The notes below the pieces were generated by a model. It was not told the DNA's origin, did no database searches, and saw nothing but the letters and a program-made list of their open reading frames with translations. Source: Gordonia polyisoprenivorans (GTDB lineage Bacteria > Actinomycetota > Actinomycetes > Mycobacteriales > Mycobacteriaceae). Taken from it: a stretch of DNA of 64,000 nt. Both the position numbers and the translations under genes were made by a program. Positions 7,064 to 19,563 of the stretch are shown in pieces. The DNA lies in NCBI RefSeq assembly GCF_017654315.1, contig NZ_CP072203.1:434001-498000 (forward strand), in the 5' to 3' direction. The stretch's first letter is position 1. The number at the start of each line of letters is the position of its first letter.

Positions 7064-7666
7064 TCAGTCCGTCGGGCCGTACATCGCGCCGTACCACAGC
7101 GCGGTCATGGTGGCGATCGCCGTCTCGTCGTCGGGCGCCTCGACACCGATATCGCCCTTGCCCGCCAGCCATGTCCAGCAAAAGGATTCGAGCATCGAGA
7201 TGATCGCCGACGCCATCGTCGGCAGATCGACGCCGGCCAGGTGGCCGGCCTTGCGGGCGCGCTTGAGGTGCGTCATGACCCCGCGCATCCCGACCGCGCG
7301 CATCTCGCGCGCACGTTGCGCGTACCTCTCGTCGGTCATCGCCATCTGCGTCAGCCCGATCATCTCCGGCAGATGCTGGCGCGACGTCGTCCAGTAGGCG
7401 GTGACCGCACCGCGCACACTCTGGTACGGGTCGTCGGACATCGCGGCCATCGACTGCTCCATCACCTCACCGGTGAACTGGTCGAGGAGGGCGTCGAGTA
7501 ACTGCGCCTTGTTCTCGTAATAGTTGTAGAACGATCCCGGCGAGCGACCGGCTGCGCGCGTGATGTCGGCGATCTTGGCGTTGAAATAGCCCTGCTCGGC
7601 AAACACCTCGCGGGCGGCGTCGAGCAGCGCCCCCTCGGTGCGCTCACCCTTGCGCTTGGTCGCCAT
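7064..7666 (-). CDS. TetR/AcrR family transcriptional regulator
   Basis: 200 residues. The N-terminal helix-turn-helix spans ~20-62, with REVFAEQGYFNAKIADITRAAG followed by SPGSFYNYYENKAQLLDALL, typical of TetR repressors. The C-terminal ligand domain is not diagnostic. The gene is divergent from the acyl-CoA ligase; the 154-bp gap between them holds a palindromic operator candidate (7772-7797) that is repeated in front of the catabolic operon ending at 18850. The regulator is therefore a good candidate to control both. An acyl-CoA or aromatic ligand is an inference. Confidence 0.92.
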   Translation of the reverse strand: MATKRKGERTEGALLDAAREVFAEQGYFNAKIADITRAAGRSPGSFYNYYENKAQLLDALLDQFTGEVMEQSMAAMSDDPYQSVRGAVTAYWTTSRQHLPEMIGLTQMAMTDERYAQRAREMRAVGMRGVMTHLKRARKAGHLAGVDLPTMASAIISMLESFCWTWLAGKGDIGVEAPDDETAIATMTALWYGAMYGPTD

Positions 7667-7771: not shown

Positions 7772-7797
7772 TTCTAAATCTAGACTCAGTTTCAGAA
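7772..7797. promoter_or_regulatory. Candidate TetR operator A (shared with 18903-18928)
   Basis: Arms TTCTAA (7772-7777) and TCAGAA (7792-7797) are separated by 14 bases. The right part, CTAGACTCAGTTTCAGAA (7780-7797), matches CTAGATTCAGATTCAGAA at 18911-18928 in 16 of 18 positions, with the same arm spacing. It lies 24 bp before the ligase ATG in the tetR/ligase divergent gap, where a TetR repressor would be expected to bind. Confidence 0.6.
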
Positions 7798-7820
7798 TCA
7801 GCATGTTCGGAGGTTCCGCC

Positions 7821-9326
7821 ATGACCGCACAGGCCATCATCCACGACAGCATCGATGCCGCGGTCCGTCGGCGCGCCCGCGAGCACGCCGACGACATCGC
7901 CGTCGTCGACCCATATCGCCACCTCACGTGGAGCGACCTCGATGCGGCCGCCGACCGGCTGGCCGCCACGCTGTCGGCACAGGGCGTCGGGCGCGGTGAT
8001 CGGGTGGCGTGGTTGGGACCGAATGTCGCCGCGTATCCGATCACCGTGCTGGCCGCGTGGCGCCAAGGCGCGTCCATCGTCGGGCTCAATCTCCGTCTGC
8101 CTGCGACGGATCTCGACGCGATGACGCAGGCGGTGCGTCCCACCCATCTGGTCTACGACGCTCACCATTCGGAACTTGCTGCCGCCCTGGATGTTCCGAG
8201 CCGAACCGTGGCGGCTCCCGACGACGAGGTATGGCCGACCATTGTGTCGGCGGGTGATGCCGGCGTCGATCGTGCGGCGATCGATACCGACGCCGACGAC
8301 GAGGCGCTGATCTACTTCACCTCGGGATCGACCGGACATCCGAAGGCGGTGCCGTTGACCCGCGGCGCGATCGAGGCGACGCTGCCCTATGCGGCCGTCC
8401 ACCGCTTCGACGAGAACTCCCGAGCGCTGGTGATCCCACCGAACTTCCATGCCGCCGGGGCAACCTGGGCCAACTACGGCATGTTCATCGGGATGCGGCT
8501 GGTCTACATCGCCGACACCTCTCCGGCCGGTATCGCCGATGCCATCGTGGAGCACGGCATCACGCACACGCTGATGGTGCCCACCCTGATCCACTCGCTT
8601 CTCGGCGAACTCCGCGAGCACCCCCGTGCGCTTCCGTCGCTGCAACACGTCGGCTACGGCGCCTCGTCGATCACCCAGCAACTGCTCGGTGAGGCCATCG
8701 GACTCCTCGGCTGCGAGTTCGCACAGGTCTACGGCCTCTCCGAAACCGGTGGCGGCGTGGCCTTTCTGGAGGTCGAGGATCACCGGGGCGATCACCCCGA
8801 GCGACTGTCGTCCGCCGGAAAGCCGGGTGTCGGTATCGATGTCGAGGTCCGCGCTCCGGACGGGTCGGTACTCGGGGCCGGCGAGTCCGGCGAACTGTGG
8901 TTTCGCTCGCCCTGTGTGACCCGTGGCTATCTCGACAATCCCGATGCGACCGCGCGGGTGCTCGTCGACTGCTGGTTCAACACCCGTGACATCGGCTTTC
9001 TCGACGACGACGGCTACCTGTATGTGCAGGGCCGTTCGGACGACATGATCTGCACCGGTGGGGAAAACGTCCATCCGCAGGTCGTCGAGGAGGTCCTCGC
9101 TGCGATGCCCGGTGTCGAGGAATGCGCGGTGTTCGGCGCACCCGACCCGCATTGGGGCCAACGGGTGTGCGCGGCGGTGGTCGCCACGGAACCGATCAGC
9201 GATGCCGACGTGATCGCCTGGTGCACTGAGCGTCTCGGACGTTTTCAGGTACCCAAGTCGGTGGTACTCCTCGACGAACTGCCCCGCACGGCGACCGGGA
9301 AGGTCAAGAGGTCGGCGTTGATGTAA
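7821..9326 (+). CDS. Acyl-CoA ligase / AMP-binding enzyme
   Basis: 501 residues, from the ATG at 7821 preceded by GGAGG (7809-7813) at 7-base spacing; an ATG at 7803 lacks such a site. Adenylate-forming motifs are complete: phosphate-binding YFTSGSTGHPKAV at ~165-177, the hinge GRSDDMICTGGENVHP near 404-419, and the C-terminal PRTATGKVKR near 487-496 with the catalytic lysine. It activates a carboxylic acid with ATP and CoA. It is divergent from tetR, and its upstream operator is shared with the HpaB/ACAD/HGD-like operon, so it probably supplies the first CoA-ester step of that pathway. Substrate unknown; fatty and aromatic acids are both possible. Confidence 0.9.
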   Translation: MTAQAIIHDSIDAAVRRRAREHADDIAVVDPYRHLTWSDLDAAADRLAATLSAQGVGRGDRVAWLGPNVAAYPITVLAAWRQGASIVGLNLRLPATDLDAMTQAVRPTHLVYDAHHSELAAALDVPSRTVAAPDDEVWPTIVSAGDAGVDRAAIDTDADDEALIYFTSGSTGHPKAVPLTRGAIEATLPYAAVHRFDENSRALVIPPNFHAAGATWANYGMFIGMRLVYIADTSPAGIADAIVEHGITHTLMVPTLIHSLLGELREHPRALPSLQHVGYGASSITQQLLGEAIGLLGCEFAQVYGLSETGGGVAFLEVEDHRGDHPERLSSAGKPGVGIDVEVRAPDGSVLGAGESGELWFRSPCVTRGYLDNPDATARVLVDCWFNTRDIGFLDDDGYLYVQGRSDDMICTGGENVHPQVVEEVLAAMPGVEECAVFGAPDPHWGQRVCAAVVATEPISDADVIAWCTERLGRFQVPKSVVLLDELPRTATGKVKRSALM

Positions 9327-9581
9327 CGCACCTCACGGACAACTCGAACCCGCAAGCGTCCTGCGGATATCAGCCGCACTCGCGCGCGACCCCAAGGGTT
9401 CGGTCTTCGCGAAAAACTATCACCACCGCTTGCCTTTTGATGTCGACGGAGTTGCTTGAGAGCCCCTTGCTGCCGATGCCCCGGTCTGCGAGCAGGCCCG
9501 ACACCGGGGCTTCCACTTCACGCCAGCGCGGCAGTCTTTCATGTTGTCAAATCGACGAGATTGTGGTTTGGTCACTCACAC

Positions 9582-9746
9582 ATGACGCCCGCAACGTCGG
9601 CCCGCAGCTCATGGTTCGTCGAGCGGAGGCGGGAGCGCACGTATTTGGCGCGGCACTGGACTGATGGGCATCACCGGGATTACCTGATCACGGTGGCGGC
9701 GAAGGAGACGAGCTTGCTGAGTCAGCTGAGAGCAACCAGGTCATGA
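9582..9746 (+). CDS. Possible small protein upstream of a membrane-protein pair
   Basis: A 54-codon frame rich in Arg and aromatic residues, with no recognised family. Its TGA (9744-9746) overlaps the ATG of the next gene (9743) in an ATGA arrangement. That is the same coupling as between the next two genes, and it is the main argument for reality. There is no clear ribosome site at 9582, and the frame could begin further upstream. The stretch 9327-9581 holds nothing else I can support. Confidence 0.3.
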   Translation: MTPATSARSSWFVERRRERTYLARHWTDGHHRDYLITVAAKETSLLSQLRATRS

Positions 9747-10024
9747 AAGCGGTGCTCGGCGCAGTGATCGGCGCGGTTTCCTGCGCACTCACGTACACGA
9801 TCTTGCGGTGGACCGCCGCCGATGTACTGGGTGTGAGCGCCCTACCCGGGACCGGGTCATGGTGGTTGTGCGCGATTTCACCCATGTTCGCCGCCGCAAT
9901 TGCCGCCGTGCTGACGACAATTGTCGGTAACCAGACCGTACGAGTACCGGTGGCCGCATTTCTTATTGCATACGTCGCGTTGGGCACGGCGCTGGCAGTC
10001 TTCACCTATGGGTACTATGCATGA
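9743..10024 (+). CDS. Small hydrophobic membrane protein
   Basis: 93 residues with about three hydrophobic segments: ~1-21, ~41-63 and ~69-92. It has very few charged residues and no recognised domain. It is flanked by ATGA overlaps on both sides and so is probably co-transcribed with the larger membrane protein at 10021. GC content looks lower than in the surrounding enzyme genes, hinting at a less conserved accessory locus. Function unknown. Confidence 0.6.
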   Translation: MKAVLGAVIGAVSCALTYTILRWTAADVLGVSALPGTGSWWLCAISPMFAAAIAAVLTTIVGNQTVRVPVAAFLIAYVALGTALAVFTYGYYA

Positions 10025-10572
10025 CCACACGGGGCGAGACTTCGCCTCGACCATTTCGGTTGACGGGAAATATCCACGGAATCGAAGGGTCCGAGATGGC
10101 CTCGGATGACGGCCCTGATCTGCAACGTCGACGCAACGCGGGCTCACCGGCGGAACGTGCCGGCGTATCGGACTCCAGCTCGGCGCCCCGGAAGTTCCCG
10201 GTGCTCCGTACGACCCTCACACCGTTCGTCGGTGCATTCGGCGTGATGCTGGTGGGCATATACGTACTTGCACAACAGTGGTCGACGTGCGATATCAATC
10301 AACTTCCCCTCGCCTCGACCGTTGGGCTGGCCATGTACACCCCGGTTGCGTACATGATCGGCCTGGTCACGCTTTTCCTAACCTCAGGGGCCCTCATGAG
10401 GGCAAGCAACCCCGTGTATTTCGTGTCGATGACGGTCGCTCTGCTGCTGAGCATCTGGCTCTTCTTGACATTCTGTTTCAGCCAATATGACAGCTACCCG
10501 GCACTATCGCCTGCGTGTCCTGAAGGGGTGCCACAGTGGTGGCCGCCATTTATCCCCTTGCTTCTCTTCTGA
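10021..10572 (+). CDS. Hypothetical membrane protein
   Basis: 183 residues. A polar N-terminal ~60 residues is followed by three hydrophobic segments: ~68-86, ~105-125 and ~135-155. The C-terminal tail is Pro/Trp-containing with three cysteines. No family recognised. The ATG overlaps the TGA of the preceding small membrane protein by four bases, suggesting a coupled pair. An internal ATG at 10096 would give a shorter product. The following ~230 bases up to the hydrolase hold no gene I can support. Confidence 0.6.
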   Translation: MTTRGETSPRPFRLTGNIHGIEGSEMASDDGPDLQRRRNAGSPAERAGVSDSSSAPRKFPVLRTTLTPFVGAFGVMLVGIYVLAQQWSTCDINQLPLASTVGLAMYTPVAYMIGLVTLFLTSGALMRASNPVYFVSMTVALLLSIWLFLTFCFSQYDSYPALSPACPEGVPQWWPPFIPLLLF

Positions 10573-10800
10573 ATTTCTGTCCTTGCGTGGCAATCATCGC
10601 CCACGACGGTCACGTGACAACCCGTCCCGCACCGTGCGGGAAAGATCGCGGCCCATGGCTTCGACAGCCCGTGTCGCCCAAAGGCACTCGGCATTGATCG
10701 CCGGATCGTATGAATACGCCGATATTCCGTCCTTGTCTTCCATGGATGGCAAACCTAGCGTGGCAAAGGTATGGGGTGGATCACAGCTGAGAGGTCGCAC

Positions 10801-11562
10801 ATGTCCACATTCGTTCTCGTCCACGGTGCTTGCCATGGCGGGTGGTCCTGGCGACCGGTCGCCGAGATCCTGCGCGAGCAGGGTCACACCGTCTACACGC
10901 CGACGTTGCCGGGACTCGGCGCCGAAGACGCACGCGCCGAGGTCAGATTGTCGGACTCCGTTGCAGCACTGGTTGATTACGTCGAGGCTCGGGACTTGCA
11001 CGATATCGTTCTCGTGGGACACAGCTGGGGCGGGTTCCCCGTGTCCGGCGCCGCCGCGGCGATCGCCGATCGGATCGAGCGCCTCATCTACTGGAGCGCG
11101 TTCGTCCCGCTCACGGGCGAATCGCTCATCGATCTGTGCCCTCCCGCTTACGGTGACATGTTCCGGGCCTCGGCCCAGTCGTCGCAGGACAACTCGGTGA
11201 TGTTCCCCTTCGAGGTCTTCGCAGGAGCGTTCATGCAGGACGTCGGTGCCGAGGTCCAGCGGGTGATCCACCCGCTCCTCGAACGCCAGCCCTTCCACAC
11301 CATGAACGACTCGCTCGACCTCGACGACTGGGCGCGGCTCGCACTTCCCGCGGTGTATCTACTCGCCGACGACGACTTGGCGCTGCCGCCAGGCGAATAC
11401 GGCTGGGAACGCTTCGCCGAGCGCCTCCCCGCAGGCTCGCCGATGCTGCGGACCCCCGGTAGCCACGAAGCACAACTGTCGTCGCCCGCCACACTCGCTT
11501 CGAGCTTTGTCGAGGCGGCGACGGTGCCACTGCAACCGAAGGTGTCCGCTGCTCGGCAGTAG
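10801..11562 (+). CDS. Alpha/beta-hydrolase (esterase-like)
   Basis: 253 residues, starting at the ATG of MSTFVLVHGACHGGWSW, the typical first strand and oxyanion loop of small esterases related to plant methylesterases. The nucleophile elbow is GHSWGG with Ser75. A late ADDDLALP segment and the GSHEAQLS block supply the likely acid and histidine. A flavin monooxygenase follows 20 bp downstream in the same direction, so the two probably act together, for example ester cleavage plus ring hydroxylation. The substrate is not visible. Confidence 0.85.
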   Translation: MSTFVLVHGACHGGWSWRPVAEILREQGHTVYTPTLPGLGAEDARAEVRLSDSVAALVDYVEARDLHDIVLVGHSWGGFPVSGAAAAIADRIERLIYWSAFVPLTGESLIDLCPPAYGDMFRASAQSSQDNSVMFPFEVFAGAFMQDVGAEVQRVIHPLLERQPFHTMNDSLDLDDWARLALPAVYLLADDDLALPPGEYGWERFAERLPAGSPMLRTPGSHEAQLSSPATLASSFVEAATVPLQPKVSAARQ

Positions 11563-11582
11563 CCGAGGCGGAGGAGTGAGAC

Positions 11583-12758
11583 GTGCACAGCCCACGCATC
11601 GCGATCATCGGCGCAGGAATCGGCGGCCTGACGCTGTCACTCGCGCTTCGTCGCCATGGCATCGCCAGTGAGATCTACGAACGCACCGAGGAACTCCGGG
11701 AGGTCGGTGCAGCCGTCGCGCTGTCGGCGAACGCGATGCGCTTCTATGAGGGTCGGCTCGAACTCGGTGACCAATTCGCGAAGGTGTGGGCCGAGATTCC
11801 CGAACTGATCTTCCGCGACGGCCGCTCCGGCGAGGTCATCGGCCGGCACTACGGCGGCGAGGAGTACCGCCGCCGTTACGGCGCGCCCTACGCCGGCGTG
11901 CACCGGGCCGATCTGCAGGCCATCCTGTCGGAGGCAGTGGGTCCCGACACCCTGCATCTGGGCCGCACGCTCATCGACATCGACGACAGCGGCACCGAGG
12001 CGATTCTGACCTTCCACGACGGCTCCACCGCCGCAGCCGATCTCGTCATCGGTGCCGACGGCGCCCGCTCCACCGTGCGACGACTCGTGCTCGGCTACGA
12101 CGACGCCCTCTACTCGGGCTGCTCCGGCTTTCGCGGCATCGTCGACCCGTCGCACCTACGGTCACTACCCGACCCGGAGGCCATTCAGTTCTGGATGGGG
12201 CCGGGTGGTCACCTGCTGCACTACCCGATCGGGTCCGGCGCACATAACTTCTTACTCGTCGAACGGGGCCCGGCACCGTGGCCCTACCCTGCCTGGACTG
12301 CGCCGGCCACTGATCATGAACGGATGAAGCACTTCTCGGGCTGGCATCCGGCGGTGACGGAGATGGTGGAGGCGGCCCCCGTCGGGGATCGCTGGGCGTT
12401 GTTCCACCGCCCGCCGCTCGCGCGATGGAACCATGGCCGCGTCACGCTGCTCGGCGACGCCGCGCACGCCCTCGTCCCGCACCACGGTCAGGGCGCCAAC
12501 CAGTCCATCGAGGACGCCATCGTCCTCGCCGACCAACTCGCCGCGGGCACCGATCTCGACGCCGCGCGCGCCGGCTACGAGGACCTCCGTCGAGACCGCA
12601 CCCGGCGGGTGCAGTACGCCTCGATCACCACCGCCGACGTGCTCCACCTCCCGAATGACTCGCCACTTCTTTACGGGCGCAACGCCCGTCTGGGAGCACC
12701 CGGCTTACCCGCTCGCCATCTGGACTGGATTCACGGCTTCGTTGCCTCCCACTCCTGA
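11583..12758 (+). CDS. FAD-dependent aromatic monooxygenase (salicylate/3-hydroxybenzoate hydroxylase type)
   Basis: 391 residues from a GTG at 11583 with GGAGG eight bases upstream. Class A flavoprotein motifs: GAGIGG at 10-15 (FAD dinucleotide fold), GADGARSTV near 157-165 (the DG motif), and GDAAHALVPHHGQGANQSIEDA near 290-311. These enzymes hydroxylate aromatic rings using NAD(P)H and oxygen. It follows the hydrolase closely. Its last ~54 bases are antisense to the end of the acyl-CoA dehydrogenase gene. An aromatic acid substrate is likely, the exact one unknown. Confidence 0.9.
   Translation: MHSPRIAIIGAGIGGLTLSLALRRHGIASEIYERTEELREVGAAVALSANAMRFYEGRLELGDQFAKVWAEIPELIFRDGRSGEVIGRHYGGEEYRRRYGAPYAGVHRADLQAILSEAVGPDTLHLGRTLIDIDDSGTEAILTFHDGSTAAADLVIGADGARSTVRRLVLGYDDALYSGCSGFRGIVDPSHLRSLPDPEAIQFWMGPGGHLLHYPIGSGAHNFLLVERGPAPWPYPAWTAPATDHERMKHFSGWHPAVTEMVEAAPVGDRWALFHRPPLARWNHGRVTLLGDAAHALVPHHGQGANQSIEDAIVLADQLAAGTDLDAARAGYEDLRRDRTRRVQYASITTADVLHLPNDSPLLYGRNARLGAPGLPARHLDWIHGFVASHS
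12673..12689 (-). terminator. Hairpin just past the catabolic operon's last stop
   Basis: Perfect inverted repeat ACGGGCG-CAA-CGCCCGT, 7-bp arms and a 3-base loop. It lies 16 bases beyond the stop of the minus-strand acyl-CoA dehydrogenase and inside the 3' end of the convergent monooxygenase gene. There is no U-tract, which is common in actinobacteria. It could terminate the leftward operon. Confidence 0.4.
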
Positions 12759-13931
12759 GATCACGAGGTCCAGGCACCCGTCCAACACCGCGCGATCGTA
12801 GTACTCCGCCGGGGTTCCGCCCGCCACCGCGAGAGTTCGAGCGTGCCGAAAGTGGAGGTGCGCGTCGTGTTCCCAGGTGAATCCGATGCCACCGCTGACC
12901 TGGATGAGTGAGCTCGACGCCGCGAGATAGGTCTCGCCGGCCGCGGCATGGGCCAGTGATGCGAGGTGCACCGCGGTATCGGGGTCGGTAAACGTCGTGC
13001 GATCCAGCGCCGCGGCGCCCGCGGTCACCAGTCCGCGGGCACCGGCCACGTCGACCGCGGTCTGCGCGCACCGGTGCGCAATGGCCTGATAGCTGCCGAT
13101 CGGGTGACCGAATTGCTCTCGGACTCCGGCGTATTCGACCATCAACGACACACATCCTTGAGCGCCGCCGACCTGCTCAGCGGCCCGCAGGAGCGTCGAC
13201 GCATCGCGGAATCGTTGCAGCGCAGTATGATCGCCCGGCTCGGTGACGAGCAGGGCCGGCGCATCGGTGACGGTCACATCGGCGCGCGGCAGTGCGAAGT
13301 CGACGGTGGTTCGGGATCTCCGGTCGGCGGAGTCGTCGAGTACCACCAGCGCGGCGGCAACGCCGTCGGCGGTGCGCACCTCGGTGACGGCGAGCCCGGC
13401 AACAACACCGTGCGACAGTGCCACGAGCACACCGGTCGCCACGCCGGCACGCCAGAGCGGAAGAGATTGCGGCTCTGCGATTTCGGTGTCGAGAGTCGAC
13501 CCGGGGACGGCCATACCAGCGAGCAGACCGTCGATGGTCCCGGTGAGGTCGACAGCATCATTGAGGCCACCCAGCGCCCCCTCACCCAGGGCTCCCTCAC
13601 CCAGCGCCCCCGCCGCGAGGACGGCGGCCCGCACCGGTCCGGGATACAGGGCGGCTCCACACTCCTCGACGGCGGCCACCAAGCAATCCAGACCCAAACC
13701 CAGACCACCCCACCGCGGCGGCATACCCAAGCTGCACAGCCCGACGTCCGTGGCGAGCGCCCGCCAGCTGCTCTCGTCGAATCCACTCGGCTGCCGGCCA
13801 TCCCTGGTGCGGCGTACCTCGTCGAGACCGGGTCGGGTCGCGAAGTAATCGCGCAGGGCGGCACGCACCTCGTCCGGCGAGATGTCGGGTGTGGTGCCGG
13901 TCGGACGGGTGCTGCTCAGAGACTCGTCCAT
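12705..13931 (-). CDS. Acyl-CoA dehydrogenase (first of two in the operon)
   Basis: 408 residues from the ATG at 13931, which overlaps the preceding hydrolase gene by 16 bases. The ACAD C-terminal half is clear: GAQGCVSLMVEYAGVREQFGHPIGSYQA at ~256-283 (FAD-binding region), and GGIGFTWEHDAHLHFRHA with Glu354 in the usual catalytic-base place. A short GEGALGEGALGG duplication sits at 111-122. It is the last gene of the leftward operon. With the second ACAD it may oxidise the acyl-CoA side chain of the pathway's substrate; two different ACADs may form a heteromer, as in steroid catabolism, but that is inference. Confidence 0.88.
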   Translation of the reverse strand: MDESLSSTRPTGTTPDISPDEVRAALRDYFATRPGLDEVRRTRDGRQPSGFDESSWRALATDVGLCSLGMPPRWGGLGLGLDCLVAAVEECGAALYPGPVRAAVLAAGALGEGALGEGALGGLNDAVDLTGTIDGLLAGMAVPGSTLDTEIAEPQSLPLWRAGVATGVLVALSHGVVAGLAVTEVRTADGVAAALVVLDDSADRRSRTTVDFALPRADVTVTDAPALLVTEPGDHTALQRFRDASTLLRAAEQVGGAQGCVSLMVEYAGVREQFGHPIGSYQAIAHRCAQTAVDVAGARGLVTAGAAALDRTTFTDPDTAVHLASLAHAAAGETYLAASSSLIQVSGGIGFTWEHDAHLHFRHARTLAVAGGTPAEYYDRAVLDGCLDLVISGVGGNEAVNPVQMASG

Positions 13932-15109
13932 GACCGCTCGCCCAGCCACTCGGTGATGGTGTCGACCGCCTTCTTCAGGTACGGCAGCTGAGCACGACCC
14001 GAATAATAGTGGGTGGCACCGACTATCGTGTGCATCTGCTTGTCCGGGTGGCCGACGGCGTCGTAGAGACGTTGGGTGTGGCTCGGCGTGCACGCATTGT
14101 CGGCACTGTTACCGAGCACCAGCGTCGGCACGGACAGATCGGCGGCACACCGCGGACCATCGCCGTTGGCGTCGTCGAAACTCCACTGCGACAGCCAACT
14201 CCGCAGTGTCGTGAAACGTGCCAGGCCCACCGGTCCCATGTTGACGATTCGCGGGTCGCCGAGGTAGCAACCCGGTTCACGGTCGTTGGGGTCCTGGGTG
14301 AGGTCGAGCCACCGGGGGTCAGCCATCGTGCCGTGCACAACGAATCCCCGCTCCATCAACGGTTCCCCCTTGGCCCGCAGATCCTCGAGCTGCTCAAGCA
14401 CCCACGCCGTGATGCGCCGGTTCCGGTCGATCTGGGCCGCACGGTATCGGGTGAGGAACTCGTCGGTGTACGGCGGCTGATTCGGGTTGTTCGGGTTGTA
14501 GAGATCGAGTTCGGGATCACGCTTGTCGGGATCGGTCTCGTCGAGGATCGACGGGTCCATCCATTCGGTGAGCGTGCCGTGTCTGCTGACGTGCGCGGCG
14601 AGCAACATCATCCCGTCCGCCGCAGGCAGATCGAGCTGCGTCAGATCGGGCGGCTCGCCGGCGGGGGTCGCGGTGACCGTCGCCTGTTGCGCCTGCTGCT
14701 GGTAGTACAGCGACAACGCTCCGCCGCCACTCCATCCGGCGAGAACGACATTGCGGTACCCGAGCCGATCGCGCGCGTCCTTCACGCATGCGCCGAGATC
14801 CTGGACGACCTTCTCCATGATCAACGCGCTGTCGACACCTCGGTAGCGGCTGTTGCAGTAGATGACGTGGTGGCCGGCGCGGGCCAGTGCATTGGTCATC
14901 GGTAGGTAGGCTCCACCGCCGATGGGGTGCATGAACACGATGACGGTGTCCGAGCTGATTCCCTTGGGCTGCAACAGATAACTCTCGAGCACCACGCTCT
15001 CGGTGACACCGCCGTAGGTGTCCCGGTAGGCCGAGGTGTCGTCGAAGACGACGAGATAGGGGATGCGGTCGTAGTCGAATTTGCGCGCCGTCGAATCCGT
15101 GGGGCTCAT
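13916..15109 (-). CDS. Alpha/beta-hydrolase family protein in the catabolic operon
   Basis: 397 residues from the ATG at 15109 (ATGA overlap with the HGD-like gene). An HPIGGG oxyanion segment follows the first strands, the nucleophile elbow is GWSGGG, and ATHYYSG near the C-terminus gives the histidine. It is longer than ordinary esterases, with a ~100-residue insertion before the acid/His region. A C-C or ester hydrolase acting after ring cleavage would suit its place next to the dioxygenase. The substrate cannot be read from the sequence. Confidence 0.82.
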   Translation of the reverse strand: MSPTDSTARKFDYDRIPYLVVFDDTSAYRDTYGGVTESVVLESYLLQPKGISSDTVIVFMHPIGGGAYLPMTNALARAGHHVIYCNSRYRGVDSALIMEKVVQDLGACVKDARDRLGYRNVVLAGWSGGGALSLYYQQQAQQATVTATPAGEPPDLTQLDLPAADGMMLLAAHVSRHGTLTEWMDPSILDETDPDKRDPELDLYNPNNPNQPPYTDEFLTRYRAAQIDRNRRITAWVLEQLEDLRAKGEPLMERGFVVHGTMADPRWLDLTQDPNDREPGCYLGDPRIVNMGPVGLARFTTLRSWLSQWSFDDANGDGPRCAADLSVPTLVLGNSADNACTPSHTQRLYDAVGHPDKQMHTIVGATHYYSGRAQLPYLKKAVDTITEWLGERSWTSL

Positions 15110-16215
15110 ACCTGTGCCTCCGCGGCGACCTCGGTGGCAGCGGCGGCCGTCATCACCGGGGTGGCGGTGAGTCGAAGACGGGTGTCGATCGCGATGACCT
15201 GCCATTCGACGCGTTGGTCGACCTCGAATCGGCGCCGGGCTCGTTCCCGAGCGCGTTCGGGAATTCCGTGGTGGATTCCTTGTGGCGCATGCGAAATCAG
15301 ACCGGGCGGCATGTCGATCCCGAAGACGCTGCCGCCGTGGTAGAAGGCGATCTCGTCGAAGTCGGTGTTGCGGTGATACCAGGGCAACCGTTCGGTGCCC
15401 AGGCGGCCTTCGACGGGCCGGGGTAGGAAGTTCATGACGTACACGCCGGTGGCCTGCATGAACAGATGCACCGTCGGTGGCAGATGCACTGTCTCGGAGG
15501 TGATGACGTCGTAGTCCTCGATGTTGAAGGTGAATGCGAAGTTGTCTCCGCGCCAGCCTTCGACGTCGAGCGGGTTGAACGGGTAGAAGAGCGACGTGGC
15601 GCCCTCACGCTGCCGGAAGCGCACCTCGTACTCCTCGCGCCCGTCGTCGGGGAACACCTCCGCCTCGGGCACGACCACCAACGACGGGTCGAACGGGAAG
15701 AAACGTCCCAGCACGCCGGCGTCGGGGACCCGGTACTCCTCGGCGGCCTCGATGATCAGGAAGTGGCAGCGATCGTCGGGGATCTGTCGGAAGGTGGTGC
15801 CCTTCGGGAGGTAGACCCAGTCGCCCGGGCGGTAGGCCAATCGCCCGAACTCGGTCTCGAAGTGACCGGTGCCGTCGTGGACGAAGATCAACTCGTCGCC
15901 ATCGACGTTGCGTGTGTAGAAGGGCGCCACGGTGTCTCGACGCGACAACGAGATCCGACAATCGGCGTTGTGGAACATGAGCAGCGGCTCACCGGCCGGA
16001 TCAATCTGATCGGTCGGCGTCAGATCCGTTGTCGCGCGGTCCACCCCGGCGAGATCTCCGACGACACTGTACTGCGTCGGGTCGTTGCGGCGGTACAGGT
16101 GTGCGGTTCGCCCGGTGAACCCGTAGCGGCCGAGCTCGTCGTCCTTGAGGTCCTCGACGTCGCGGTGAACCTGACGAGGCGTCCGGCCCTTACGGTGGGT
16201 GATGAACGACTCCAT
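15106..16215 (-). CDS. Homogentisate 1,2-dioxygenase-like protein
   Basis: 369 residues, from the ATG at 16215 with an AAGGAGT site upstream; shorter than classical HGD (~430-445). The double-cupin HGD family is seen in GDWVYLPKGTTFRQIP (130-145) and the iron-site region YHRN-TDFDEIAFYHGG (280-295) plus HAPQGIHHG (309-317). In classical HGD the ligands are His and Glu six apart in HRNxMSE. Here the Glu is seven after the His (His281/Glu288, with Asp287 between), so substrate or metal geometry may differ. It lies between an ACAD and a hydrolase, so I infer cleavage of an aromatic ring, not necessarily homogentisate. Confidence 0.8.
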   Translation of the reverse strand: MESFITHRKGRTPRQVHRDVEDLKDDELGRYGFTGRTAHLYRRNDPTQYSVVGDLAGVDRATTDLTPTDQIDPAGEPLLMFHNADCRISLSRRDTVAPFYTRNVDGDELIFVHDGTGHFETEFGRLAYRPGDWVYLPKGTTFRQIPDDRCHFLIIEAAEEYRVPDAGVLGRFFPFDPSLVVVPEAEVFPDDGREEYEVRFRQREGATSLFYPFNPLDVEGWRGDNFAFTFNIEDYDVITSETVHLPPTVHLFMQATGVYVMNFLPRPVEGRLGTERLPWYHRNTDFDEIAFYHGGSVFGIDMPPGLISHAPQGIHHGIPERARERARRRFEVDQRVEWQVIAIDTRLRLTATPVMTAAAATEVAAEAQV

Positions 16216-16259
16216 CTCGACACTCCTTCGTGGGTGGTGCGGCACGGTCGTGCCGGAAA

Positions 16260-17477
16260 TTATCGGCGGGGCAACCCGAGTCCGCGTTGGGCGATCACGG
16301 AGAGCTGGATCTCGTCGGTGCCGCCGGCCAGGTGCAGGGCGGGGACGCCGAGGATGAATTCCGACCACGCGAAGGTGTCGGGGTCACCGTTGTCGACGAA
16401 TGCCCGTTCCCCGAGCACTTCGGTTGCCAGACGGGCGATCTCATCGGCGGCGCGGACCATCAGCAACTTGAGCACCGATCCGCTGACCGGCGCCATCCGG
16501 TGGCTCCACGATCCGGGGCTGAGCCCGGCCGCGGCACGCATGGCGGTCACGGCGGTTACGGTACGCGCGATCTGCGGCCGATGGACCGGATCCGACTCGG
16601 CGTCGAGGCGGCGCACCAACTCGACGAGCCGCGCCATCACGACCGGCGTCAGCGGGCCACCGGGTCCGCTCATCGTCGACCGCTCGCTACCCAGGCTCGT
16701 CGACGCCACCGCCCAGCCCTCACCGATCCCGCCGATCCGGCGGCTGTCGGAGACCCGGACGCCGTCGAGAAAGACCTCGTTGAACGCCGCACCACCGGTC
16801 ATCTGCCGGATCGGGCGCACCGTGATGCCGGGCGCATGCATGTCGAGCAGGAACATGGTGAGGCCGGCGTGTTTGGGCGCCTCGGGATCGGTGCGCACCA
16901 GGGCCTCGCCGACGTCGGCGAGATGACCCATCGAGGTCCACACCTTCTGACCGGTGATCACCCAGTCGTCACCGTCACGCACCCCACGGGTGGTCACCGA
17001 CGCGAGGTCCGATCCGGCGCCGGGCTCGCTGAACAGCTGGCAGCCGATCAGATCGCCCCGGAACAGCGCGGGCAGCACGGAGTCACGCAAGTGCGCGGGC
17101 GCGTGTCGGAGCAGGGCCGGCGCGACGATGTTCAATCCGACGAAAAGTGCCTCCCTGGACGGGAATCCGAGCTCGTCGAGGACGTTCTCCAAGACCTCGT
17201 CGTGTGCCGCGGACAGCCCGAGGCCGCCGAGTTCGACCGGACCGCCGGGCCACGCGACACCCGCGTCGAACAGCGCGCCCTGCAGTCGGCGCATCCGCGC
17301 GACCACCTCCTCGTGACCCGCACGAAGCTCTTCTACCGCCGCGATCCGGTCGCCTCTGAAATCGTCGGTGGCGGGAGCTTCTGCGGCAGAGCAGAACTCA
17401 CCGGTCAGGCCTGCGAGACGACGCCGCAGATATCGGGCGAAGGCGTCGAGCCCCGTGGGAATCCCGGTGAGCGTCAT
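16260..17477 (-). CDS. Acyl-CoA dehydrogenase (second of two in the operon)
   Basis: 405 residues. ACAD motifs are visible: CQLFSEPGAGSDLASVTTRG (middle beta domain, substrate and FAD contacts), DDWVITGQKVWTS, and a C-terminal AGGTDEIQLSVIAQRGLGLPRR. The aligned catalytic Glu is not obvious to me. The ATG overlaps the stop of the HpaB-like gene (ATGA), so translation is coupled. Only 44 bp separate it from the HGD-like gene. It probably oxidises a CoA ester in the same pathway as the ACAD at 12705. Confidence 0.9.
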   Translation of the reverse strand: MTLTGIPTGLDAFARYLRRRLAGLTGEFCSAAEAPATDDFRGDRIAAVEELRAGHEEVVARMRRLQGALFDAGVAWPGGPVELGGLGLSAAHDEVLENVLDELGFPSREALFVGLNIVAPALLRHAPAHLRDSVLPALFRGDLIGCQLFSEPGAGSDLASVTTRGVRDGDDWVITGQKVWTSMGHLADVGEALVRTDPEAPKHAGLTMFLLDMHAPGITVRPIRQMTGGAAFNEVFLDGVRVSDSRRIGGIGEGWAVASTSLGSERSTMSGPGGPLTPVVMARLVELVRRLDAESDPVHRPQIARTVTAVTAMRAAAGLSPGSWSHRMAPVSGSVLKLLMVRAADEIARLATEVLGERAFVDNGDPDTFAWSEFILGVPALHLAGGTDEIQLSVIAQRGLGLPRR

Positions 17478-18850
17478 GCCAATCCCGCGAGCTCCAGAGC
17501 CGCGCGCTTGGCCTTGTCCATGTCGTAGTGTTTGCGTGCCACCAGACGTTGCGCGTACAGCCCGCCGCCGGACTGCAGCATCGTCACCAGCTGCCAGCCA
17601 CCGTAGGCGTCTGCGGTGAAGTCGCGGATGGCGTGGAACAGTCTGGTGCGGTAATCGCCGTCGACGCCGTCCTTGGTGCGCATGTACTTCTTGATCAGCG
17701 GGCCCACCTCGTCGTTGTCGAGGTCGGCGGTCGACGGTGCGGTGAGAATCGAGCCGCCGCCGATGTCATGGAGATGTCGGACCATCAGGCTGTAATCGGC
17801 TGCGGCGTAATGCTTCGCGGCATTGGTGTAGAGCTCGCTCGGGAAGTACCAGCCCTCCGGGCTCTCCTCGGCGTTGGCGATCGCCGCCTCGAGGCCGGAC
17901 CGGACCATGGTGGCGTAGATGATCATTTCGGCGATCTTCTCGCGGATGTGGTTGATGCGTTCGGTGCCGTTGGCCTCGGCGATCAGCTGCGCCAGCCCGA
18001 CGAGTTGATCGGCGAACTCCGACATGTGGGCGGTTCCGCCGAGACGCTCCCACAGTCCGAGGGCGTGGGCGAAGGTCGCCGAATGGCCGACCTGACCGTC
18101 GAGGAAGACCCGCTCGGCGGGGACGAAGACGTCGTCGAAGATGATGAAGCCCTCGGGCATATTGTGTTTCGCGCTGACCGGGAAGTCGCCCTCGCGCTCA
18201 CGGGGCGCGTAGCTGGTGTTCACGATGCGCACGCCCGGCGCGTTGACCGGCACCGCGCACGCGATCGCGTAGTCCTCTTCGCCCGGTTTCATGTTCTTGG
18301 TCGGCATGACGACGAGTTCGTGACAGACCGCCGCCGACGAGATGTGCAGTTTGGCGCCACGGATGACGACCCCGTCGGGGCGGCGCTCGACGATCCGCGT
18401 GTAGACGTCGGGATCGTCCTGCGCCCCCGGCGGCAGCCGACGGTCGCCCTTGGCGTCGGTGATGGCCTGCACGCAGCGCAGGTCGCTGCGCCGGCAGTAG
18501 TAGAAGTAGTCCTCGATGCGTGCGGACGCCTCGGGGTGATCGGCGCGCATGCGGGCGGCCGCGGTCAGCAGCGCGAGCAGGCCCTGGCTGGTGGTGACGG
18601 TGACCATGTCCCAGTGCAGCAGGTCCGACAGCAATTCCTTGAGTTGGACAGGGCTGCGCGGGATGTCGAAGTACGGACCGCTCGCATCATCGCCCGGCCG
18701 GTAGTGGTCGGCGTAACCCTGGCCCACGAGTTCGATCGCGGTGGCGAATTGCGGGTGCCGGGAGAGGTCCTTGACCTGCTCTCCCTCGGCGAAGATCCGG
18801 CGACCGTCATCGAGGGACGCGACGTAGGAGTCCCTGGTCATCATCGCCAT
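17474..18850 (-). CDS. 4-Hydroxyphenylacetate 3-hydroxylase (HpaB) family flavoprotein
   Basis: 458 residues and first gene of the leftward operon. ATG at 18850 with AAAGAGG upstream. The HpaB/4-hydroxybutyryl-CoA dehydratase fold is recognised from RDSYVASLDDGRRIFAEG, the HWDMVTVTTSQGLLAL block and the C-terminal GGGSILTAPS region. The dehydratase branch needs a CxxxC and a His-x6-Cys for its iron-sulfur cluster. Here the only nearby cysteines are 119 and 126, and the FAHALGLWERLGG region has no Cys, so a flavin-dependent aromatic hydroxylase is more likely. No flavin reductase partner is adjacent. A probable operator lies 53 bp upstream. Confidence 0.85.
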   Translation of the reverse strand: MAMMTRDSYVASLDDGRRIFAEGEQVKDLSRHPQFATAIELVGQGYADHYRPGDDASGPYFDIPRSPVQLKELLSDLLHWDMVTVTTSQGLLALLTAAARMRADHPEASARIEDYFYYCRRSDLRCVQAITDAKGDRRLPPGAQDDPDVYTRIVERRPDGVVIRGAKLHISSAAVCHELVVMPTKNMKPGEEDYAIACAVPVNAPGVRIVNTSYAPREREGDFPVSAKHNMPEGFIIFDDVFVPAERVFLDGQVGHSATFAHALGLWERLGGTAHMSEFADQLVGLAQLIAEANGTERINHIREKIAEMIIYATMVRSGLEAAIANAEESPEGWYFPSELYTNAAKHYAAADYSLMVRHLHDIGGGSILTAPSTADLDNDEVGPLIKKYMRTKDGVDGDYRTRLFHAIRDFTADAYGGWQLVTMLQSGGGLYAQRLVARKHYDMDKAKRAALELAGLA

Positions 18851-18902
18851 GTGAGGCCTCTTTCGGGGTGAGGGGATTGGGCGCGCGAGTTCGGCTCGAC
18901 TT

Positions 18903-18928
18903 TTCTGATGCTAGATTCAGATTCAGAA
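18903..18928. promoter_or_regulatory. Candidate TetR operator B of the catabolic operon
   Basis: TTCTGA (18903-18908), 14 bases, then TCAGAA (18923-18928): a perfect 6-bp inverted repeat. CTAGATTCAGATTCAGAA (18911-18928) matches the site at 7780-7797 in 16 of 18 positions. It lies 53-78 bp upstream of the HpaB-like start codon, in the divergent gap to the GNAT gene. The local AT-richness suits a promoter. Confidence 0.6.
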
Positions 18929-18990
18929 ATATACAAGCGCAGGTATGCCAGCCGTTGCTCCTGCACGCCAAGTGGGTGAGGCTGGTTGTC

Positions 18991-19563
18991 ATGACCGTGA
19001 AGGTACGCCCGGCGACGCATTTCGACGACGTCGCCACCATGGTCGGGCCGAAGCGTCCCGACGCCAACGTCTGCTGGTGCCTGAGCTATCGAATCCCCAA
19101 CGCCCTGAACCGCACTTTGGCGAAGCAGGAGCGGGGACGATACGTCCGGAAACTCTGTGCCGCCGATCCCCCGCCGGGTGTTCTTGCCTACCTCGACGAC
19201 GAGGTGGTCGGCTGGGCCGCTATCGCACCTCGCGCGGAGACCACCTTCGCGACGAACCGCAGGATCCCCCACGTCGACGACCTCGACGTCTGGTCACTGT
19301 GGTGTATACGAATCCGGCCGGGTCACCGCAAGACCGGGCTCGTGCACCCCCTCATCGCCGGTGCCGTCGAGTTCGCACGGGATCGGGGAGCACCCGCTGT
19401 CGAGGCGTACCCCGTGGACAACCGCGGCGAACGTGTCGATCTCACGATGGCCTACGTCGGCACCCGCGCCATGTTCGAGACCGCCGGGTTCGTCAAGGCT
19501 TCCGACACGACGTCGGTGCTCAACGGCTTTCCGCGGATCATCATGCGGTTGCCGCTGGGGTGA
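18991..19563 (+). CDS. GNAT family N-acetyltransferase
   Basis: 190 residues from the ATG of MTVKVRPATHFDDVATMVG; upstream in-frame codons would run into the operator region. The GNAT core is visible: GVLAYLDDEVVGWAAIAPR (strand 4), LWCIRIRPGHRKTGLVHPLIAGAVEFARDRGA (the acetyl-CoA-binding A motif with R/G-x-x-G-like turn), and a late MFETAGFVKASDT. The N-terminal CWCLSYR segment is typical of a YafP/ActR-like subgroup. Acceptor unknown. It is divergent from the catabolic operon and is probably unrelated to it. Confidence 0.85.
   Translation: MTVKVRPATHFDDVATMVGPKRPDANVCWCLSYRIPNALNRTLAKQERGRYVRKLCAADPPPGVLAYLDDEVVGWAAIAPRAETTFATNRRIPHVDDLDVWSLWCIRIRPGHRKTGLVHPLIAGAVEFARDRGAPAVEAYPVDNRGERVDLTMAYVGTRAMFETAGFVKASDTTSVLNGFPRIIMRLPLG

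Follow-up and report, generated by a model that had tools for sequence, protein, structure and literature searches.

Whether one TetR-family regulator can govern two promoters that lie 11 kb apart is the question raised by a 64,000-bp stretch of the Gordonia polyisoprenivorans genome (6.03 Mb, single contig; NZ_CP072203.1, positions 434,001–498,000, hereafter the window). One of the promoters lies between a tetR gene on the minus strand and a divergently oriented acyl-CoA ligase gene on the plus strand. The other precedes five minus-strand genes (12705–18850) encoding, in this order, an HpaB-like protein, an acyl-CoA dehydrogenase (ACAD1), a homogentisate-dioxygenase-like protein (HGD), an alpha/beta hydrolase (ABH2) and a second acyl-CoA dehydrogenase (ACAD2), in agreement with the five-gene HpaB-like operon recognized in an earlier note on this DNA. 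We consider it very likely that TetR represses both the ligase gene and the HpaB–HGD operon through two operators and that the two units serve one catabolic route. The sites, their uniqueness and conservation, their overlap with promoters and their linkage to tetR and the operon were read directly from the sequence.

The two promoters share an 18-mer (7780–7797 and 18911–18928) that is identical at 16 of 18 positions. With up to three mismatches allowed, it had two matches in the window (mean 0.01, largest 1 in 100 shuffles) and two in the whole genome, where the reversed control gave one. Both 18-mers belong to 26-bp sites forming the imperfect palindrome TTCTRA-N14-TCAGAA; operators 1 and 2 share 21 of the 26 positions, with 8 and 9 complementary pairs out of 13, respectively. 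The relaxed pattern TTCTRA-N14-TYAGAA at no more than one mismatch was found at six places in the genome (reversed control, one), of which the two without a mismatch were exactly operators 1 and 2 and the remaining four had one mismatch. The earlier claim of a near-identical site with the same arms at both promoters was thus borne out. The proximity of the sites to the gene starts was confirmed as well, but the distances given as 24 and 53 bp had to be corrected to 23 bp between operator 1 and the ligase ATG (7821) and 52 bp between operator 2 and the HpaB ATG (18850). Between the two regulated units lie genes for an alpha/beta hydrolase and a 3-hydroxybenzoate/salicylate-hydroxylase-like FAD monooxygenase (10804–12758), and this pair, as the earlier note had stated, has no copy of the operator, either as the 18-mer with up to three mismatches or as the arm pattern with up to one.

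To follow the operator in relatives, the pattern TTCTRANNNTARAYTCAGNTTCAGAA was searched with up to two mismatches in 121 related genomes, which revealed 24 sites in 21 genomes, all of them Gordonia, while the reversed pattern gave none. The gene context of the 24 loci was determined by tblastn with the window proteins. Every site adjoined tetR, operon or ligase genes and none lay elsewhere, so the motif was not common at unrelated genes; its frequent occurrence there was the outcome that the earlier note had named as refuting a regulon. Twelve sites lie between tetR and the HGD gene and one between tetR and HpaB, so that 13 of the 24 operators have tetR on one side and the HGD or HpaB operon on the other. 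Six further sites are located upstream of HpaB without a neighbouring tetR, four between tetR and a ligase gene or ligase fragment (in the window genome, its kin G034, Gordonia oryzae (G001) and G003), and one in front of a remnant of ACAD1, after which HGD follows. The G. oryzae operator (L024) is kept with one end base changed. HpaB orthologs of at least 77% identity were present in eight of the 121 genomes; the site precedes seven of them and the eighth (G032) has a degenerate site. HGD relatives (E≤1e-40) were found in 20 of the 21 motif genomes versus 3 of 38 other Gordonia genomes. The motif genome that lacks HGD (G010, L006/L025) has an HpaB ortholog with an inner stop and a short ACAD1 match; its operon is decaying while the operator is kept. 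At L036 (Gordonia desulfuricans), the frame after the operator/promoter starts HpaB-like and ends ACAD1-like, as if a short operon form had arisen by a deletion fusing the two genes.

The distribution of the regulator follows that of the site. TetR orthologs of at least 47% identity, a line chosen after the identities were known, occurred in all 21 motif genomes versus 4 of the 38 other Gordonia genomes (Fisher p 2.4e-12, not corrected for kinship). In these searches the best 26 candidates per genome were scored. At E≤1e-25, TetR matches were found in 30 of the 121 genomes, but five of these with 32–39% identity, three of them in Gordonia, were left out of the co-occurrence test. When the three near-identical copies of the window's TetR were left out, the DNA-binding helix-turn-helix of the TetRs encoded beside the site was 68–79% identical to that of the window TetR, compared with 41–54% for the rest of the protein. 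A second conserved palindrome (TTCCAAAACTGTGTTCATTTTCAGAA and variants) was seen near the approximately 50%-identical TetRs of G016, G010 and G006 (L134 8826, L135 5248 and L079 3375), and it is perhaps the operator of a sister regulator.

The position of the operator relative to promoter elements indicates how it could act. A TANNNT hexamer lies inside the operator at all 24 aligned sites, and at 20 of them, which are all 20 operon sites, a TTG-starting hexamer is found 17 bp upstream of the first and 2 bp ahead of the operator. The pair reads TTGTCA/TAGCAT in most relatives, while TTGTAT/TAGCAT of the window fits 7 of 12 consensus positions, a modest match that ties with another placement. 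Since the operator covers the −10 box and starts 2 bp after the −35 box at all 20 operon promoters, repression by TetR is likely, and steric repression is the simplest reading of the overlap. According to the mechanism we propose, the product of tetR (7064–7666) would act as a local repressor binding the 26-bp imperfect palindrome both in the tetR/ligase region and at the promoter of the HpaB–HGD operon, where it would block RNA polymerase. It would be released by a small molecule, for which the CoA-thioester product of the ligase or an intermediate further along the route is the likeliest candidate. We infer TetR binding, repression rather than activation and this inducer. Because the tetR/ligase site could serve both genes, tetR may also control itself. 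The site thus probably defines a conserved TetR regulon with local repression of a catabolic route, and genes separated by 11 kb are thereby brought together in a single regulon that can be tested.

The ligase was searched in 61 of the 121 genomes, including 15 of the 21 motif genomes, with the best 25 candidates per genome scored. Relatives at E≤1e-95 were detected in four of the 61 genomes (the window's, G034, G016 and G003), and all four were linked to the system. The ligase gene faces tetR across the operator in the window genome, G034 and G003 (50% identity in the latter), while in G016 a relative of 60–62% identity follows the operon in the same orientation, separated from ACAD2 by approximately 1.5 kb that include an enoyl-CoA-hydratase-like gene. 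Ligases of 45–51% identity were also found downstream of the operon at L147, L148 and L149. This linkage, the co-occurrence of TetR with the operator and the orientation of tetR toward the operon argue for the earlier proposal that the ligase gene and the HpaB operon would stand together under tetR.

Several observations weigh against such a regulon. The TetRs beside the site have the recognition helix SFYNYY, but the same helix also occurs in several TetRs that have no good site in their vicinity; it therefore lends support to the operator assignment but is not diagnostic of it. Of the four Gordonia genomes that have TetR but not the motif, two carry weak sites upstream of the operon (G032, 27.4 bits; G050, 19.8 bits), one (G033) carries a weak site of 10.5 bits beside tetR, and one (G038) has no site in 14 kb. 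The HpaB ortholog of at least 77% identity is absent from 14 of the 21 motif genomes, and the TTG at the −35 place is missing from all four tetR/ligase sites. G006 and G010 retain the site at the operon although no tetR adjoins it, and the sole TetR found in them (50–51% identity) is encoded elsewhere. One regulator might therefore bind both sites while the main binder is another TetR-type protein and the ligase-adjacent tetR regulates only itself. We regard this as quite improbable, because, among the 26 of 123 candidates that were scored, the window genome has one match to TetR at E≤1e-25 and because the operator separates the operon from a facing tetR ortholog in many relatives, including those of other orders.

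The ligase could instead be a passenger that has come under tetR through adjacency and does not feed the HGD pathway. A close ligase relative (E≤1e-95) was absent from 11 of the 15 motif genomes searched, and in G. oryzae only ligase residues 1–86 are matched next to tetR (L024 18494–18751), but the linkage in G016, G003 and the three loci with more distant ligases makes this reading unlikely. That TetR activates the operon rather than represses it appears very unlikely; some TetR proteins are activators, as the NCBIfam name of FasR states, but the placement of the site over the −10 box and 2 bp behind the −35 box at the operon promoters favours polymerase exclusion. There is hardly any room left for chance similarity or a copied DNA segment, although this genome holds only two sites. 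The 60-bp flanks of the two operators are identical at 18 and 17 of 60 positions, which equals background, thus the pair is not a copied segment. Considering the shuffles, the reversed controls and the conservation in 21 genomes together with the flanks, both origins were rejected. Repression of the ligase gene and the operon by the adjacent TetR is thus the reading we retain for the features listed in the table.

Features of the tetR–ligase and HpaB–HGD units (window coordinates)
Feature	Position	Strand	Remarks
TetR-family regulator, 200 aa	7064–7666	−	PF00440 2.8e-14, 53.1 bits (cut-off 24); orthologs adjoin same operator in relatives; proposed repressor of both promoters
Operator 1, TTCTAAATCTAGACTCAGTTTCAGAA	7772–7797		tetR/ligase intergenic region
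Acyl-CoA ligase, 501 aa	7821–9326	+	PF00501, PF13193
ACAD2, acyl-CoA dehydrogenase	12705–13931	−	PF00441 (on longer frame); start inferred
ABH2, alpha/beta hydrolase, 397 aa from inferred start	13916–15109	−	PF12146, PF00561
HGD, homogentisate-dioxygenase-like cupin, 369 aa from MESFI	15106–16215	−	PF20510 36.3 bits (cut-off 20.2)
ACAD1, acyl-CoA dehydrogenase	16260–17477	−	PF02770, PF00441
HpaB/4-hydroxybutyryl-CoA-dehydratase-like protein, 458 aa	17474–18850	−	PF11794, PF03241; first gene of operon
Operator 2, TTCTGATGCTAGATTCAGATTCAGAA	18903–18928		upstream of HpaB operon
Putative −10 box, TAGCAT	18908–18913	−	within operator 2; TANNNT at equivalent place in 24/24 aligned sites
Putative −35 box, TTGTAT	18931–18936	−	17 bp from −10; TTG at equivalent place in 20/24 aligned sites

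The operon genes are tightly packed, their junctions being overlaps of 4–16 bp or, once, a 44 bp gap (inner starts are inferred). A frame beside the operon (18868–19563) looks GNAT-like by eye, and since its homolog adjoins tetR in many relatives, tetR appears to have changed its place in the lineage of the window.

The system extends beyond Gordonia. In a scan with the HGD alignment, 320 loci were found and 80 were kept. The order tetR–operator–HpaB–ACAD1–HGD–ABH2 recurs in six loci, four of Actinomadura, one of Microtetraspora niveoalba and one of a Nocardiopsis bin, with TetRs 58–62% identical to that of the window. A lineage pattern searched in these six genomes and in Williamsia limnetica gave 13 sites in six of the seven genomes and none with the reversed control. 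Six sites lie before HpaB, three (L223, L225 and L228, Actinomadura) before a CoA-transferase/ligase pair and two (L226 and L227) before another tetR, which is convergent with a ligase gene. Of the last two, judged by eye, one (L224) is 237 bp before an SDR-like gene and the other (L222) falls immediately behind the stop codon of a dehydrogenase-like gene without a clear target. The lineage pattern was not matched in W. limnetica, where a weaker site (26.7 bits) is located between tetR and HGD. The operator can serve as a genome-readable tag for a catabolic route that several orders of actinobacteria share.

In mycobacteria, tetR lies approximately 3.4 kb downstream of HGD, the TetR is 32–39% identical to that of the window, and its helix reads VFYRYF in seven of nine sampled proteins. 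The site AACAAAAAGTAATGTCACTTTCAGTTTT, a pattern written after inspecting the sequences, precedes HGD by 41–68 bp in 57 of 59 loci (the 63 loci L153–L215 minus four non-mycobacterial ones); judging from these sequences, regulator and site may have changed together. The conserved mycobacterial cluster comprises HGD, hydrolase, CoA-transferase, TetR, ACAD and an APH-like kinase. At L213 (14062–16274), near the HGD core, an ACAD gene is directly followed by an APH-like phosphotransferase gene, a pair reminiscent of ACAD10/11-type 4-hydroxyacyl-CoA handling. An HsaA-like gene that precedes HGD in Mycolicibacterium wolinskyi was considered as a substitute for HpaB and dropped, as it is present in only some mycobacterial loci. 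HGD relatives were also present in 61 plasmid records, but none of them reached 60% identity and they were uninformative here.

What the route degrades is suggested by the enzymes. The best solved matches of ACAD1 were 6wy9_A, 6wy8_B (Tcur3483) and 4x28_A, those of ACAD2 were 4x28_D and 6wy8_A (Tcur3481), that is, the two proteins of one operon match two different partner chains of the same solved complexes. We take 4x28 and Tcur3481/Tcur3483 (6wy8/6wy9) to be steroid-type heteromeric ACADs, of which ACAD1 and ACAD2 are distant relatives. The match to partner chains suggests a heteromer of the steroid-catabolism kind, hence one acting on a bulky or cyclic CoA thioester.

By profile, the closest solved relatives of the HpaB-like protein were 6vjr (4.1e-70) and 1u8v (3.8e-66), which places it near 4-hydroxybutyryl-CoA dehydratase/vinylacetyl-CoA isomerase. 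None of the residues that we take to be the ligands of the [4Fe-4S] cluster of 1u8v (three Cys and one His: C99, C103, H292 and C299) is aligned with a Cys or His in the window protein, although the alignment is weak around C99/C103, and ten aligned sequences have no invariant Cys. An Fe–S dehydratase was therefore rejected, because the cluster ligands are not kept. The protein shares the Pfam pair PF11794/PF03241 with HpaB of 4-hydroxyphenylacetate 3-monooxygenase, but it scores 164.3 bits against the cut-off of 480.2 of the HpaB-1 equivalog TIGR02309. Residues R100, Y104 and H142, presumably the catalytic ones of Thermus HpaB (2yyg), have no aligned equivalents in the profile alignment, in which the Arg/Tyr stretch is weak, and in the Pfam scan none of the proteins encoded by the operon's five genes showed a flavin reductase domain. 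Of the earlier label HpaB-type oxygenase, only the fold is thus borne out. Although both residue sets are missing from the window protein, the ten aligned sequences share many invariant positions, so it may catalyse a different reaction.

The dioxygenase-like protein shows a similar mixture. HgmA_N of homogentisate 1,2-dioxygenase is above its cut-off, but the equivalog TIGR01015 reaches 47.2 bits against 510.75 and only part of the chain aligns. Of H331, E337 and H367, which we assume to be the iron ligands of that enzyme, H331 of 3zds aligns with the His of WYHRN, E337 falls on an Asp with a Glu adjacent, and H367 is outside the aligned part; further invariant His is present. ABH2 had no solved relative at E≤1e-3. 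HGD and ABH2 are found side by side in mycobacteria as well as in Gordonia and Actinomadura, and also in the short Gordonia operons without HpaB and ACAD1, therefore they look like the pathway core.

In the order of steps and type of substrate that we infer, the ligase would form an acyl-CoA, the ACAD1/ACAD2 pair would desaturate it as a steroid-type heteromer, the HpaB-fold protein and the HGD-like dioxygenase would modify and open a ring, and the hydrolase would process the product. We tentatively suggest, as one possibility, a conserved actinobacterial pathway, not found in print in the open-access literature searched, for a steroid-, terpenoid- or prenylated-hydroquinone-type acid at the CoA-thioester level. 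The HGD-like enzyme and a new hydrolase would form the core, joined in Gordonia and Actinomadura by an HpaB-fold protein that lacks both catalytic sets and performs a reaction new to the fold; the 59 mycobacterial genomes examined would use the same core, likewise linked to TetR but with an operator that has diverged. The ligands of TetR regulators of this kind are often pathway intermediates, thus TetR offers a direct way to the substrate.

KstR and KstR2 are TetR-family repressors that control actinobacterial steroid-catabolism clusters with an acyl-CoA ligase and heteromeric ACADs and are released by CoA thioesters. The combination of a putative TetR repressor, ligase and ACADs is the same here, and by this analogy the inducer would be a CoA thioester of the pathway. 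KstR2 structures also appear among the weak sequence matches of the window TetR (4w97, E 6.4e-5). However, this TetR would regulate other genes and reaches no NCBIfam equivalog cut-off (17 families matched, the best at 55.8 bits, none a KstR model). Its proposed operator is also unlike those of KstR and KstR2. No description of this TetR regulon was found in the open-access literature searched, and for that literature the pathway may still be called undescribed, as in the earlier note. The hmg cluster of Rhodococcus ruber Chol-4 contains hmgB and the MarR-type hmgR (PMC6498646), a gene set unlike that of the window, and ordinary hmg clusters are described in PMC6498646 and PMC4591350. The regulatory system is thus of a familiar kind, while the pathway may be more novel. 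In Actinomadura, an HMG-CoA lyase gene adjoins the operon, from which an isoprenoid substrate could be guessed.

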